10,754 nucleotides of DNA from Syntrophomonas sp. (GTDB lineage Bacteria; Bacillota; Syntrophomonadia; Syntrophomonadales; Syntrophomonadaceae): positions 1 through 10,754 of the forward strand of contig DLUN01000020.1 in assembly GCA_003444615.1 (NCBI GenBank). Direction: 5' to 3'. The position numbers were made by a program, and so were the translations under genes. Under the pieces are notes generated by a model that worked only from the letters and a program-made list of their open reading frames with translations, did not search any database and had not been told where the DNA came from. This document shows positions 4,017 to 10,754 of this stretch, in pieces; position 1 is the first letter of the stretch; each line of letters begins with the position of its first letter.

Positions 4017-4217
4017 TCAGGATGGTTGCGGTTTTTCCTCTACTCGTATCATACGGCGTTCAAACTCCGAGCGGGGCATCATGACCAGACGCCCGCATCC
4101 CTGACAACGGATCTTTATATCCGCTCCCATGCGAACTACTTCCCAATTAAAACTGCCGCAGGGATGCTTTTTTTTCATGCGCACTATGTCACCCAACTGG
4201 AATACTTTCCGTTGCAT
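4017..4217 (-). CDS. DUF951 family protein
   Basis: Short (66-residue) conserved Firmicute protein of the DUF951 family, whose function is unknown. The family pattern is clear: FQLGDIVRMKKKHPCG (6-21), then WEVVRMGADIKIRCQGCGR (about 25-43) and VMMPRSEFERRM. C20 in HPCG and the CQGC pair suggest metal binding or a small SH3-like barrel with a zinc knuckle. That is inferred. ATG at 4217 is chosen because GGGAGGG lies six bases upstream. A TTG further upstream (4232) has no suitable site. In several Firmicutes DUF951 lies close to ychF and rpsF. Here it sits 59 bases after selD and two genes from rpsF, and no ychF is present between them. Confidence 0.88.
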   Translation of the reverse strand: MQRKVFQLGDIVRMKKKHPCGSFNWEVVRMGADIKIRCQGCGRLVMMPRSEFERRMIRVEEKPQPS

Positions 4218-4276: not shown

Positions 4277-5326
4277 TCATTTAGGGCGTATATATATCGT
4301 GCCCGGTTTACCGGTGGCATTATTGCGAATTATCCCCACCACCGCTGCCGGAACCTGCCGGTTTTGCAAAGCCTGCTGCATATCATCCGCCCGTGATTCT
4401 TCCACCGCTATTAATAATCCCCCTGCGGTTTCCGGACAGAACAGCACATCTTTTAGAATTCCATCTACTTCCTGTTCATAAACTACTTTGTCCGCTAGAT
4501 AGTCCCGGTTAGCATAGGCTCCCCCCGGTACCAGTCCTATAGAAGCATAGTCTAAAACCTCTCTCATCACCGGAACCTTATCCGTCCATAGTTCCACCTC
4601 TACTTCGCTGGCAGCGGCCATTTCCTGCAGGTGTCCTATCAAACCGAACCCGGTTATATCTGTAGCCGCACGAACACCTATTTCCTGCATGGCTTCACTG
4701 GCCTCCCGGTTGAGGGTGGTCATCCAGCGGGCTGCTTCGTCACTGGCCTCCTGGGAAGCCATTTCAGCTTTGATAGCCGTATTTATAATACCATTGCCTA
4801 TGGGCTTGGTCAGTATTAAAACATCACCGGGTTTAGCTCCTCCATTGCTGATTACCCGGTTTGGATGAACCATACCGATCACAGACAATCCATACTTAGG
4901 TTCCTGATCATCAACAGTATGTCCTCCTACCAACAGGGCGCCGGCTTCTTCAATCTTTGACAGACCTCCCGCCAAGATATCCCGTAACATCTGCATATCC
5001 TCACACTCGGGATAGCATACGATATTCATAGCCAGGCGGGGGGTACCGCCCATGGCATAAACATCATTAATAGCATTGGTGGCCGCAATCTGACCGAACA
5101 GGTAAGGATCATCCACCATAGGGGTAAAGAAATCTAAGGTTAATATGAGTGCTATATCCGGGCTAATACGAAATACCCCTGCATCATCACGGGTTTGGGC
5201 TCCCACTAGCAGATCAGGATGATAGGGGAAAACCGCATCGCGGAGAACTTCATCCAGGGTCCCCGGACCCATTTTAGCCGCTCATCCTGCAGCCCGGACC
5301 ATCTGAGTCAGCCTTTTTTGATTCAC
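4277..5326 (-). CDS. selD: Selenophosphate synthetase, selenocysteine-containing (in-frame TGA at codon 15)
   Basis: SelD makes selenophosphate from selenide and ATP, the selenium donor for selenocysteine and selenouridine synthesis. An ATG at 5272 gives a protein lacking the catalytic loop. Reading further upstream in the same frame gives RLTQMVRAAG-U-AAKMGPG, which matches the family's catalytic GCxAK/GUxAK motif, with TGA (5284-5282) in the Cys/Sec place (residue 15) and Lys at 18. The GTG at 5326 is the only suitable start below an in-frame TAA, with GGGGG nine bases upstream. Family Asp positions are present: DDAG (47-48), LDFF (D65), NDVYAMGG (D88) and TDITGFG (D223). GGHTVDDQEPKYG lies at 134-146. 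The length of 349 residues is normal. The gene also ends in TGA (4279-4277), with TAA two codons on. Translation needs tRNA-Sec, SelA and SelB, which are not in the window. Confidence 0.93.
5240..5284 (-). promoter_or_regulatory. Candidate bacterial SECIS element in selD
   Basis: Starting at the in-frame TGA, the RNA has GCGG (5281-5278), then a perfect 6-bp hairpin GGGTCC-GG-GGACCC (5270-5257) whose loop is about 20-24 bases from the TGA, then CCGC (5243-5240), which can pair with GCGG. Apical hairpins at this distance are where bacterial SECIS elements bind SelB. The sequence also encodes the conserved KMGPGTLDE, so codon constraint may contribute to the pairing. Confidence 0.6.
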
Positions 5327-5355
5327 TCTTCCTATCCCCCTTTCTGTTTATGAAT

Positions 5356-5593
5356 TGTCAATGCGAGGTCTGCAGCAAAAGCTCTATCTTCCCCTGGGAA
5401 GCTAACATCTCCTGTAAGCCCCGTTTGAGATTGCCACGCCCCGTTGGGGCTGGCAATGACATATAAGGAACCATTTTCACAGCAACCTTAATAGTGAGTT
5501 CCGAAGGAACGAACACCAGTAGTGCCGGAACGGCCAATAACATGTAAGATGACTTCCTTGAATCGCTACGTCGCTATGCTCCTCGCCACGACA
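5356..5593. repeat. Intergenic hairpin-rich repeat region, degenerate dispersed-repeat cluster
   Basis: No convincing gene is seen between selD and the aminopeptidase. The region is bounded by inverted ends TGTCAATGCGAGG (5356-5368) and CCTCGCCACGACA (5581-5593), which match at 10 of 13 positions. It holds three hairpins: CTTCCC-CT-GGGAAG (5388-5401), TTGCCA(C)GCCCC-GTT-GGGGCTGGCAA (5431-5456) and GTTCC-GAA-GGAAC (5498-5510). GCTACGTCGCTATGCTCCTCG (5564-5584) and TGGCAATGAC resemble the dispersed 'GTCATTGCGAGGAGCGAAGCGAC' repeat type that I recall from Clostridia and other genomes. A 61-codon frame at 5358-5543 (minus) has no recognisable domain and is discounted. Confidence 0.5.
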
Positions 5594-5603
5594 TGACATC
5601 TAT

Positions 5604-6995
5604 TTAACCAGTAAAGGAATTGAAAAACGCATTATAAGCTTTGTAGGCCATGTAAATATCAGCTTTGCTGGCCACTTCAAAAGGTGAATGCATACCCAGA
5701 AGAGCCGGTCCGCAATCAACTACCTCCATGCCGTAGCGGGCTACATACTGGGCTACGGTGCCTCCTCCTCCCGCGTCCACTTTGCCCAATTCTCCTACCT
5801 GCCAGATAACCCGGTTATCATCGAAAAGCCGGCGTATCTGACTCAAAAACTCAGGATTGGCATCATTGGAATCATATTTGCCTCTGGAGCCAGTGTATTT
5901 AGTAAGGACCACACCCCGCCCCAGATAACTATTATTCATTTTTTCGAATACATCCAGGTAGTTGGGATCTACCGCCCCGTTAACATCGGCTGATAAGCAA
6001 TATGAATCAGCTAGAGCCTTTCTTACGGTATAATAGTCAGCCCCACCTGCTTTTTGCATCAGCTCAGCTACAAACAGTTCTACTACCAGGGACTGCAACC
6101 CGGTATTGCCGCTGCTGCCTATTTCTTCTTTGTCGGCGAACAAACACATGGCCGTCCGCTGAGGAATAGCCGCATCCAGGATAGCCCTCAGTGAGGTATA
6201 GGCACATATACGGTCATCCTGGCCAAAGCCTCCTACCATACTGCGATCCAAACCTACATGACGGGCTTTGAAAGCCGGCACAAACTGCAGTTCCGCCGAA
6301 GTAAAGTCATCTTCTTCTATACCATAGCGCTGCTCCAGCATTTTGAGCACCGCACTTTTAACCGGGTCTTTGGCTCCAGTTGCTTCGGGACGGCTGCCAA
6401 TCAGCGCGTTGAGACTTTCCCCGGTTATCGCCTCAGACATTTTCTTCTCCATCTGTTCCTTGGCTAGGTGAGGCAGTAGGTCAGCAATGGTAAACACCAG
6501 GTCGTTTTCGTCCTCACCCAGCTGTACGTCCACTCTGGTACCATCCTTTTTGAAAATAACACCATGTAGTGCTAAAGGCATAGCCAGCCAGTGATATTTT
6601 TTAATTCCTCCATAGTAGTGAGTTTTCAGCATGCTGAGTCCCTCTGCTTCATATAAAGGCCGGGGTTTCAAATCAAGACGCGGGGTGTCTATATGAGATA
6701 CCACCAGATTTATACCTTTACGTAAATCCTGCTGACCGATAATAATCAGGGCACAGATTTTGCCTTTGGCTTCCATATACAGTTTGTCTCCTGCTTTAAT
6801 CTCTTTCACCTGATCCAAGGGCTGAAATCCGTGCTCTAAAGCTATTTTTCTTACGTATTCAACCGCCTCACGTTCGGTTTTAGCCAGATTAAGAAAGTCG
6901 ATATAGTTATCGGCAAAAAGGTAAGCTCCTTGAGCCTCCTCTTCATTCATTTTAATCCAGGCATTATTTTTTAGATCTTCTCCTATTTCGCTCAT
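5604..6995 (-). CDS. M18 family metal-dependent aminopeptidase
   Basis: Cytosolic aminopeptidase of peptidase family M18 (aspartyl aminopeptidase/aminopeptidase I group), which uses two metal ions to remove N-terminal residues from peptides. Metal-ligand motifs are all visible: VVSHIDTPRLDLKP (His101, with Asp103 nearby), GGFGQDDRIC (Asp260/261), ADKEEIGSSGNTG (catalytic and ligand Glu290/291), SADVNGAVDP (Asp337) and LLGMHSPFE (His436). DAGGGGTVAQY (407-417) is another family motif. The length of 463 residues is typical, and there is no signal peptide. The ATG at 6995 has AAAGGAGG about eight bases upstream. It lies 53 bases downstream of cvpA on the same strand, so the two may share a transcript. 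The repeat-rich gap after its stop separates it from selD. Substrate preference cannot be read from the sequence. Confidence 0.93.
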   Translation of the reverse strand: MSEIGEDLKNNAWIKMNEEEAQGAYLFADNYIDFLNLAKTEREAVEYVRKIALEHGFQPLDQVKEIKAGDKLYMEAKGKICALIIIGQQDLRKGINLVVSHIDTPRLDLKPRPLYEAEGLSMLKTHYYGGIKKYHWLAMPLALHGVIFKKDGTRVDVQLGEDENDLVFTIADLLPHLAKEQMEKKMSEAITGESLNALIGSRPEATGAKDPVKSAVLKMLEQRYGIEEDDFTSAELQFVPAFKARHVGLDRSMVGGFGQDDRICAYTSLRAILDAAIPQRTAMCLFADKEEIGSSGNTGLQSLVVELFVAELMQKAGGADYYTVRKALADSYCLSADVNGAVDPNYLDVFEKMNNSYLGRGVVLTKYTGSRGKYDSNDANPEFLSQIRRLFDDNRVIWQVGELGKVDAGGGGTVAQYVARYGMEVVDCGPALLGMHSPFEVASKADIYMAYKAYNAFFNSFTG

Positions 6996-8705: not shown

Positions 8706-10007
8706 ATGATGAACCTGTTCAAGCACAACCCTATTCTTAATGAAATCAAAGAAAGCTTTAGACTTGACCTTTCTGCTCTGCAAGATATAGCAGAAGATTT
8801 CTATGAAGAATTAATCCTGGCTGTAAACGGGCAGCCCTCCTCCCTGCAAGCACTGCCTTCCTACTTACCCACCGCGTCAGGAAAAGAACAAGGTAACTTT
8901 ATTACCATTGATTTCGGAGGCACTAATATCCGCGTTAGTTCGGTAACACTGCAGGGGAATGGGAGCTGGTCAGTGCGGGCAGAAGTACGAAAACCCTTGC
9001 GGGATCCAAATCGGGAATATGATCTGACCACAACTGAAACCAGCGGCACCGAGGTTTTTGACTTTGTTGCTGACCTGATTGCCCAGGTATACAATAGTTT
9101 TCCTAGTTCCCAAATAGGGATGACTTTCTCTTATCCCATGGTACAGCACAGCAAAAATGAAGCTCGCCTGTTGCGCTGGACTAAGGAGTTACAGCCCCAT
9201 GACACTATAGGTGAAAGAATTGATCTTATGCTCACCGAATCTATTCGTCGCCGGGGGCTGGCTAAACTGTCTCTGGCAGCTATTATCAACGACACTACCG
9301 CCTGCGCTCTAGCTGCATCATATCAACACCCCGCCGTGAAGATTGGCTCCATTTGCGGAACCGGCCATAATTCCTGCTGCCTGTACCCGTATTTCCCCGA
9401 AAAGCCGCCCGTAATTATAAATCTAGAATCGGGAAACTTTAACCGGCTGCCTCTTAATGGTTTTGATAAACGGCTGCACCAGCATACTCTGGACCCGGAC
9501 CAACAACACCTGGAAAAAATGGTGGCGGGCAAATACTTAGGAGAAATGTGGCGTTTAATACTCTGGGAGCTTATCCAAAAGGATCAGTTACCAGAGCCTA
9601 GCCATCCTTTGTTGCAACAGCCTTTCGCGGTTAGCAGCGAACCATTAAGTTACCTGTATGCCGACCCCTGGGGTAATAGTGCCCGGCAATGGTATCAGCA
9701 GGCCGGGATAGACCACTATCAACCCTATCAGTTATTGATTTTACAGGACATCAGTGCTGCTGTCATTCACCGGGCTATTGGTTTAATTGCGGCCAGTTAT
9801 GCAGGTATACTAAAAAGCAACTCCTCTTCGGATGAGCCCGCTGTAATTGCCGTAGATGGTTCTGTTTTTCGCTTTCTGCCCGGATTCAAGCAGGGTGTTG
9901 AACAGCAGTTGGCTAATTTGCACCCCGACCATCCTCCCAGATTATTACTAACCCCAGAAGGCTCCAGTATCGGAGCTGCGGTCGCTGCTGCCCTGCCTTC
10001 TGTTTAA
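8706..10007 (+). CDS. Hexokinase of the eukaryotic HK/glucokinase family
   Basis: ATP-dependent hexose kinase (sugar to sugar 6-phosphate) of the hexokinase family usual in eukaryotes, unlike bacterial ROK or Glk kinases. The motifs appear in family order: ITIDFGGTNIRV (66-77, phosphate 1), MTFSYPM (139-145), LLRWTKELQ (155-163, with the Thr-Lys sugar contact), INDTTACAL (194-202, catalytic Asp196), GTGHNSC (218-224), INLESGNF (238-245, Glu241), LEKMVAGKYLGEMWRLI (269-285, Glu270), VDGSVFRFLPGF (383-394) and PEGSSIGAA (417-425, adenosine site). At 433 residues it is one catalytic unit. No signal peptide or membrane segment is seen, so it is cytosolic. The start is ATG at 8706 (or 8709), with AAAGGGA very close upstream. 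It is probably a separate unit from the VTT gene. The substrate may be glucose, mannose or fructose. Confidence 0.92.
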   Translation: MMNLFKHNPILNEIKESFRLDLSALQDIAEDFYEELILAVNGQPSSLQALPSYLPTASGKEQGNFITIDFGGTNIRVSSVTLQGNGSWSVRAEVRKPLRDPNREYDLTTTETSGTEVFDFVADLIAQVYNSFPSSQIGMTFSYPMVQHSKNEARLLRWTKELQPHDTIGERIDLMLTESIRRRGLAKLSLAAIINDTTACALAASYQHPAVKIGSICGTGHNSCCLYPYFPEKPPVIINLESGNFNRLPLNGFDKRLHQHTLDPDQQHLEKMVAGKYLGEMWRLILWELIQKDQLPEPSHPLLQQPFAVSSEPLSYLYADPWGNSARQWYQQAGIDHYQPYQLLILQDISAAVIHRAIGLIAASYAGILKSNSSSDEPAVIAVDGSVFRFLPGFKQGVEQQLANLHPDHPPRLLLTPEGSSIGAAVAAALPSV

Positions 10008-10177: not shown

Positions 10178-10754
10178 GTGAAAAATTTGTTGAAAATTGT
10201 CTTTATGGTCGCACTCATCTGCTCCCCGTTACATAATTTTGGTTTTCTAGCATCGGCTGAGGCTGCGCCGGTCATTACCGTCAAGGCTTGTGTCTCATTA
10301 ACAGGCAGCAGCGATGGTTATGTTCTCCCCAGTTATCTGGTGAGTAAATATGTAGATGGGAAAGCCTACACCCCCAGCAAATCTCCGGTGGTGCGCATTT
10401 ACCGAGCTGCCAAACCCGGCCATAACTGTCTACCGGAAAAACCAGTAGTTCCGGCTCCTAGGCCAAAACCGGGTCCCAAACCCGAGACTCCCCAGCCAGC
10501 TCCGGAGCCACAGCCTAAACCAGAAGTTCCAGCACCGGCACCCAGTCCAGAACCTAATCCGCTACCCGAGCCTAAGCCGGCACCGGAACCAGCGCCTTCT
10601 GATTTTTCGGCTATGCAGAACGAAATGCTGGGTTATATCAATGCGGCCAGAGCCCAGCATAATTTGGCGCCCCTTACCTTGGACACCGCTTTGTGTAACG
10701 GAGCTTATCTGAAATCAAAAGATATGGCGGAAAACCTGTCTCTTATACACATCT
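10178..10754 (+). CDS. Secreted CAP/SCP-domain protein with Pro-rich linker, partial (3' end replaced by adapter)
   Basis: Probable exported protein with a CAP (SCP/PR-1/YkwD-like) domain. In spore formers such proteins are often envelope or spore associated, but the biochemical role is unclear. GTG at 10178 follows AAGGAGGT by seven bases. Residues 1-29 are a signal peptide: MKNLLK, a hydrophobic core (about 7-25), then ASAEA for cleavage. Residues 30-85 form a small region with two cysteines (38 and 84) and the pattern VSLTGSSDGYVLPSYLVS, which I do not recognise. Residues 86-140 are a low-complexity Pro/Lys/Glu/Ala linker. The CAP domain begins near 143 with MQNEMLGYINAARAQHN, then LTLDTALCNGAYLKSKDMAEN to residue 186. 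Codons after 10735 come from sequencing adapter, so the real remainder (usually around 80-90 more residues) is missing. Confidence 0.88.
   Translation, partial: MKNLLKIVFMVALICSPLHNFGFLASAEAAPVITVKACVSLTGSSDGYVLPSYLVSKYVDGKAYTPSKSPVVRIYRAAKPGHNCLPEKPVVPAPRPKPGPKPETPQPAPEPQPKPEVPAPAPSPEPNPLPEPKPAPEPAPSDFSAMQNEMLGYINAARAQHNLAPLTLDTALCNGAYLKSKDMAENLSLIHI
10736..10754. other. Nextera/Tn5 mosaic-end adapter sequence (artefact)
   Basis: The last 19 bases, CTGTCTCTTATACACATCT, are identical to the reverse complement of the Tn5 mosaic end used in tagmentation library adapters. They sit exactly at the end of the window and break the expected CAP-domain protein sequence. They are library sequence left in the assembly, not a chromosomal transposon end. 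Confidence 0.96.

Follow-up and report, generated by a model that had tools for sequence, protein, structure and literature searches.

SelD, the selenide water dikinase, has an N-terminal catalytic loop with the motif G-(C/U)-x-x-K. A 2006 list of ten selenoproteins for Syntrophomonas wolfei includes SelD and five FdhA proteins, and its authors argued that FdhA or SelD maintains the selenocysteine (Sec) trait (PMC1794560). In a set of 223 reference prokaryotic genomes, 19% of the SelD genes identified were reported to carry Sec, and bSECIS elements were detected in these Sec-SelD genes (PMC4561486). For a Sec-linked formate dehydrogenase, both annotated parts were identified by peptide fingerprints (PMC3582634). 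The bSECIS model, with its limits as quoted in PMC13188914, comprises a loop of 3–9 nt, a stem of 4–16 bp, a G in the first two loop bases, a spacing of 16–37 nt, and an MFE of at most −7.5.

The stretch of DNA analysed here (henceforth the window; 10,754 nucleotides) is contig C193 of a draft assembly (1.85 Mb, 248 contigs, 63% complete) and holds the selD gene described in Table 1. The Sec-SelD arrangement is not new and its biology is established: the Sec-SelD of S. wolfei and other Clostridia is the same gene with Sec, and the NCBI genus name is that of the nearest named relative, Syntrophomonas sp. DTU018 (80% identity; PMC1794560). The window genome, however, is another and only partly assembled one, and S. 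wolfei enters this comparison through its listing alone. Less ordinary are a 1-nt slip of the mRNA hairpin after the UGA between relatives and one genus that keeps only a second, overlapping hairpin.

Table 1. Features of the selD locus in the window (positions are those of the window, position 1 being its first base).
Feature	Positions	Strand	Basis
selD, selenide water dikinase, 350 aa, Sec inferred at residue 15	4277..5326	minus	TIGR00476, Pfam AIRS and AIRS_C, GTG start, TGA terminator
In-frame TGA, codon 15, inferred Sec codon	5282..5284	minus	Sequence; TGA at 88/90 sites in 84 genomes, own included
Likely ribosome-binding site AAAGGGGG, ending 9 nt before the GTG	5336..5343	minus	Sequence
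Internal ATG, start in the ordinary ORF call, not a conserved start	5270..5272	minus	Met in 4/30 and Ile in 26/30 loci
Likely SECIS hairpin 1, stem GGGUC/GACCC, loop CGGG from 16 nt after the UGA	5257..5270	minus	Stems at this centre in Sec versus Cys genes
Hairpin 2, overlapping hairpin 1, loop GAC from 20 nt after the UGA (or GGACC, 19 nt)	5252..5268	minus	Fold; kept where hairpin 1 is broken

The plus strand reads TCA at the site, i.e., TGA on the minus strand, and this codon is in frame with the 331-aa ORF of the ORF listing (4277–5272, minus strand), which bears out the earlier note on this DNA. Its further claim, that the frame extends upstream of the ATG at 5272 to a GTG at 5326 with a ribosome-binding site, held in both coordinates and sequence: the frame reads MNQKRLTQMVRAAG-TGA-AAKMGPG from the GTG and, apart from the TGA at codon 15, is open to the end of selD. 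Around the TGA lies the motif RLTQMVRAAG-U-AAKMGPG, where homologues carry the catalytic Cys or Sec. SelD scored 384 bits against TIGR00476 (NCBIfam selD) with the upstream part and 362 bits without it (cut-off 125), and 330 bits against NF002098 (cut-off 299). In an alignment to the solved SelD 2yye, residue 15 stood opposite a Cys (AG-U-AAK versus SGCAAK), which we take to be the catalytic Cys of the SelD family; a conserved Lys (Lys18) follows three residues later, and AG-U-AAK fits the N-terminal G-(C/U)-x-x-K loop. The TGA thus occupies the Cys/Sec position of the catalytic motif, as had been proposed, and codon 15, the UGA, almost certainly encodes selenocysteine in the catalytic site of SelD. 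Because the internal ATG is codon 19, a gene call starting there loses 18 codons, so that the ordinary call does hide the N terminus and the catalytic loop.

Conservation of the site was assessed in 101 genomes (the window's own and 100 relatives), 95 of which gave a query match (E ≤ 0.001), in some cases just to distant paralogues. Matches without the N terminus were left out of the site reading, and the site was read at 90 loci from 84 genomes, counting the window itself (five genomes with more than one locus; one same-genome pair identical over the 51 nt compared). The codon was TGA at 88 of these 90 sites, Cys at one, and unreadable at one. The first set of loci had TGA at the same motif in 30/30, the window itself being one of them, and the further 60 loci had it in 58 (55 by pattern and three by eye), along with the single Cys and the unreadable codon. 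Since the same TGA and motif were kept across the loci, chance is excluded. A set of 80 named loci shares at least six contigs with the loci already counted. Of these 80, 70 fitted the pattern (65 TGA, 3 Cys, and 2 false matches); after dropping 12 loci, namely the ten that the pattern did not locate and the two whose first match was not SelD (L144 and L154), TGA was present in 65 of 68 located SelD sites. A further 173 plasmid records with SelD-like matches are outside all counts given here.

As a separate observation, Cys-SelD and TGA-SelD occurred together in ten genomes (out of 93 that had a match), all from the window's phylum (G065, G107, G108, G111, G115, G117, G118, G125, G140, and G153), and one of these, G065, carried three SelD genes. 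A literature search returned no report of paired Sec and Cys SelD, such a search being no proof of absence in print.

Were translation to start at the internal ATG instead, a shortened SelD lacking the catalytic loop would result and the upstream reading would be fortuitous. This ATG is indeed the start in the standard ORF listing, and the short protein still reaches 362 bits; however, only 4 of the 30 loci, counting the window's, have Met at this position and 26 have Ile, the upstream motif and its TGA are kept at 88/90 sites, the GTG is preceded by the ribosome-binding-site-like AAAGGGGG, and the shorter protein would cost SelD its catalytic loop. We consider such a start highly improbable. 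A Cys codon turned into TGA, whether through an error of sequencing or assembly or through decay to a pseudogene, would suit a fragmented draft assembly with adapter remnants at its contig ends. Where the earlier note had set TGC or TGT against TGA as the alternative at this site, three further genomes from the window's genus (L020, L021, and L123) read TGA, which makes a base error at codon 15 very unlikely; apart from that codon the selD frame is open to its end, and a SECIS-type hairpin is kept at the gene, and we give error or decay hardly any weight.

That the organism reads UGA as Sec, as the earlier note had held, was supported by the rest of the genome, in which a search for selA, selB, and selC found all three on a single contig, C96. 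Profile matches placed selB at C96:9316–11190 (383 bits) and selA at C96:11253–12623 (581 bits), and the tRNA-Sec gene (selC, anticodon UCA, 71 bits) was located at C96:685–778. The proposed check for further Sec proteins yielded two formate-dehydrogenase-like genes with an in-frame TGA. The one on C1 scored 870 bits, over the cut-off, and has its TGA within DHCART-U-HAPTV, followed by a hairpin read by eye (GUGGCC-GGUCU-GGCCAC, loop from 18 nt after the UGA); the one on C153 has its TGA within EHQARI-U-HAPTV and matched in pieces, the best of them at 198 bits, below the cut-off. A third, weaker formate-dehydrogenase match on C7 was without TGA. TGA is also the terminator of selD itself, of a MazG-like gene, and of selA, and the selD mRNA would therefore use UGA once for Sec and once as a stop. 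Although codes with UGA reassigned genome-wide (e.g., to Trp or Gly) exist in other bacteria, UGA is not simply reassigned here because TGA also ends selD and selA as well as the MazG-like gene, nine other genes of the window are without in-frame TGA (partly by construction, as they were picked as open frames), and tRNA-Sec (UCA), SelA, and SelB are present, which leaves this the least credible of the three alternatives. The internal start, the base error or pseudogene, and the genome-wide reassignment were all rejected.

Downstream of the selD UGA, two overlapping and mutually exclusive hairpins can form, with centres (i+j, counted from the UGA) at 43/44 for hairpin 1 and 50 for hairpin 2. 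Hairpin 2 was the lowest-energy fold of 48-nt and 51-nt pieces, and the 56-nt piece folded with hairpin 1. Folding energy alone was weak evidence for a SECIS: the energy after the UGA gave z = −0.91 against dinucleotide shuffles (56-nt piece), and with synonymous shuffles the mean z was −0.82 at the UGA versus −0.23 in 120 control stretches, the window's own value being −2.20 (9 of 300). For this reason, codon-level and position-specific tests were used. The codons after the UGA are constrained, with Pro25 encoded by CCG in 28/30 loci (background 31%), Gly26 by GGG in 25 of its 28 Gly codons within the 30 loci (background 27%), and residue 27 by a C-ending codon in 30/30 loci. When centres 34 to 63 were scanned, the largest excess of stems over synonymous shuffles was found at 43, 44, and 50 (z of 13.0, 12.2, and 10.8, respectively), and the next-largest at 49 (z of 9.7). 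The best stem at centre 43/44 measured 5.31 versus a mean of 2.07 expected under a null with pooled codon use (85 genes, loops to 7 nt) and 5.34 versus a mean of 2.96 under one with each locus's own codon use (88 genes, loops to 9 nt); the stem figures quoted below are from the latter, more conservative null.

Cys-SelD such as 3u0o, presumably the E. coli protein, shares with the window SelD the family, the catalytic position, and the following Lys, and differs in having Cys in place of Sec. The Cys control comprised 22 genes, i.e., 19 of 20 stop-free loci (one that misfitted the pattern was dropped) and the three named Cys loci, and two genera (g32 and g71) supplied 16 of the 22. At centre 43/44, a stem of 4 bp or more was present in 80/88 Sec genes (37% in synonymous shuffles with the codon use of each locus) and in 1/22 Cys genes (6% in synonymous shuffles), and either hairpin was present in 86/88 Sec genes (49% in shuffles) and 2/22 Cys genes (8% in shuffles), the sequences being related, so that shuffle and Fisher figures are non-independent counts. 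Neither hairpin reached 4 bp in 2/88 Sec genes. A SECIS-type hairpin after the UGA is thus largely confined to Sec genes. One Cys-SelD (L147, selD site near 4045) retains a stem of 5 bp where the SECIS would lie, which is what a recent change from Sec to Cys might leave.

Within the bSECIS limits given above, as quoted in PMC13188914, the hairpin of the window qualifies with a stem of 5 bp, the loop CGGG, a spacing of 16 nt, and an MFE of −15.7 for 51 nt. The geometry was found in 85/88 Sec genes (80 with the MFE as well), in 57% of synonymous shuffles, and in 7/22 Cys genes, and the model alone is therefore not very selective. Because shuffles and Cys genes also satisfy the geometric limits somewhere, the fixed position of the hairpin is the better evidence. 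An Rfam search of the window returned no SECIS, its single match being sub-threshold and to another element.

Set against the bSECIS model, the selD hairpin has two peculiarities. Between relatives, hairpin 1 shifts its register by 1 nt, which couples the third base of a Gly codon to the residue three codons on. This coupling was observed in the 53 of 88 genes that have these codons, which are related and non-independent sequences: GGU occurred with Thr ACC in 35, GGG with Ala GCC in 15, GGG with ACC in 3, and GGU with GCC in 0. In genus g22, all five loci read (L043, L046, L085, L086, and L120) have hairpin 1 broken and only hairpin 2 kept. One might guess that lineages shift between the two hairpins and that the SECIS slides or switches, perhaps so as to adjust SelD read-through to the supply of selenium; both the switching and the regulation are guesses, and we think this scenario unlikely. 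A literature search listed 10 of 106 papers, none of them on register shifts at SelD, which does not prove their absence in print.

On the strength of the reading frame and its homology, the Sec machinery in the genome, the conserved TGA, and a hairpin that is mostly limited to Sec genes, we conclude with great confidence that the selD of the window is an ordinary bacterial selenoprotein gene, from a Syntrophomonas-like bacterium, that starts at GTG 5326 and would take up Sec15 by way of a SECIS. In the mechanism that we propose, translation would start at this GTG and the ribosome would reach the UGA at codon 15, where the SECIS hairpin of the mRNA (5270–5257, or the overlapping 5268–5252) would recruit SelB carrying Sec-tRNA-Sec, and Sec would be inserted instead of termination. 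Sec15 would then lie in the N-terminal loop together with the conserved Lys18, and SelD, going by the known chemistry of its family, would make selenophosphate from selenide and ATP. SelA would use this selenophosphate for Sec-tRNA, in part for SelD itself. The suggestion of the earlier note that SelD helps to make its own Sec is consistent with such a self-feeding loop.

Other features of the window were recorded alongside selD. An interspersed repeat (5395–5610) lies upstream of selD, between it and a gene for an M18 aminopeptidase; the genome contains another 19 partial matches to this repeat. Positions 8706–10007 of this syntroph-like genome encode a eukaryotic-type hexokinase (PF00349/PF03727); its best solved matches are hexokinases, which we take to be mammalian. 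PF03727 was found in 8 of the 61 genomes searched, own included, and in 0 of 14 control genomes. The contig ends in a 19-base adapter (10736–10754), presumably that of Tn5/Nextera, so that the ORF at 10178–10753 finishes with residues (LSLIHI) that are adapter and not protein. The adapter has 73 copies in the assembly: 37 of the 39 reverse copies lie at bases 1–19 of their contig, and of the 34 forward copies, all six for which the contig end was checked finish at the last base of the contig.

For the annotation of this gene, the GTG start corrects a call from the ATG that loses 18 codons and the catalytic loop. The signature at the RNA level (80/88 Sec-selD versus 1/22 Cys-selD genes, counted over related sequences) could help gene callers. 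For the organism, the locus supports the use of selenium by this lineage for SelD, and probably for formate dehydrogenase.
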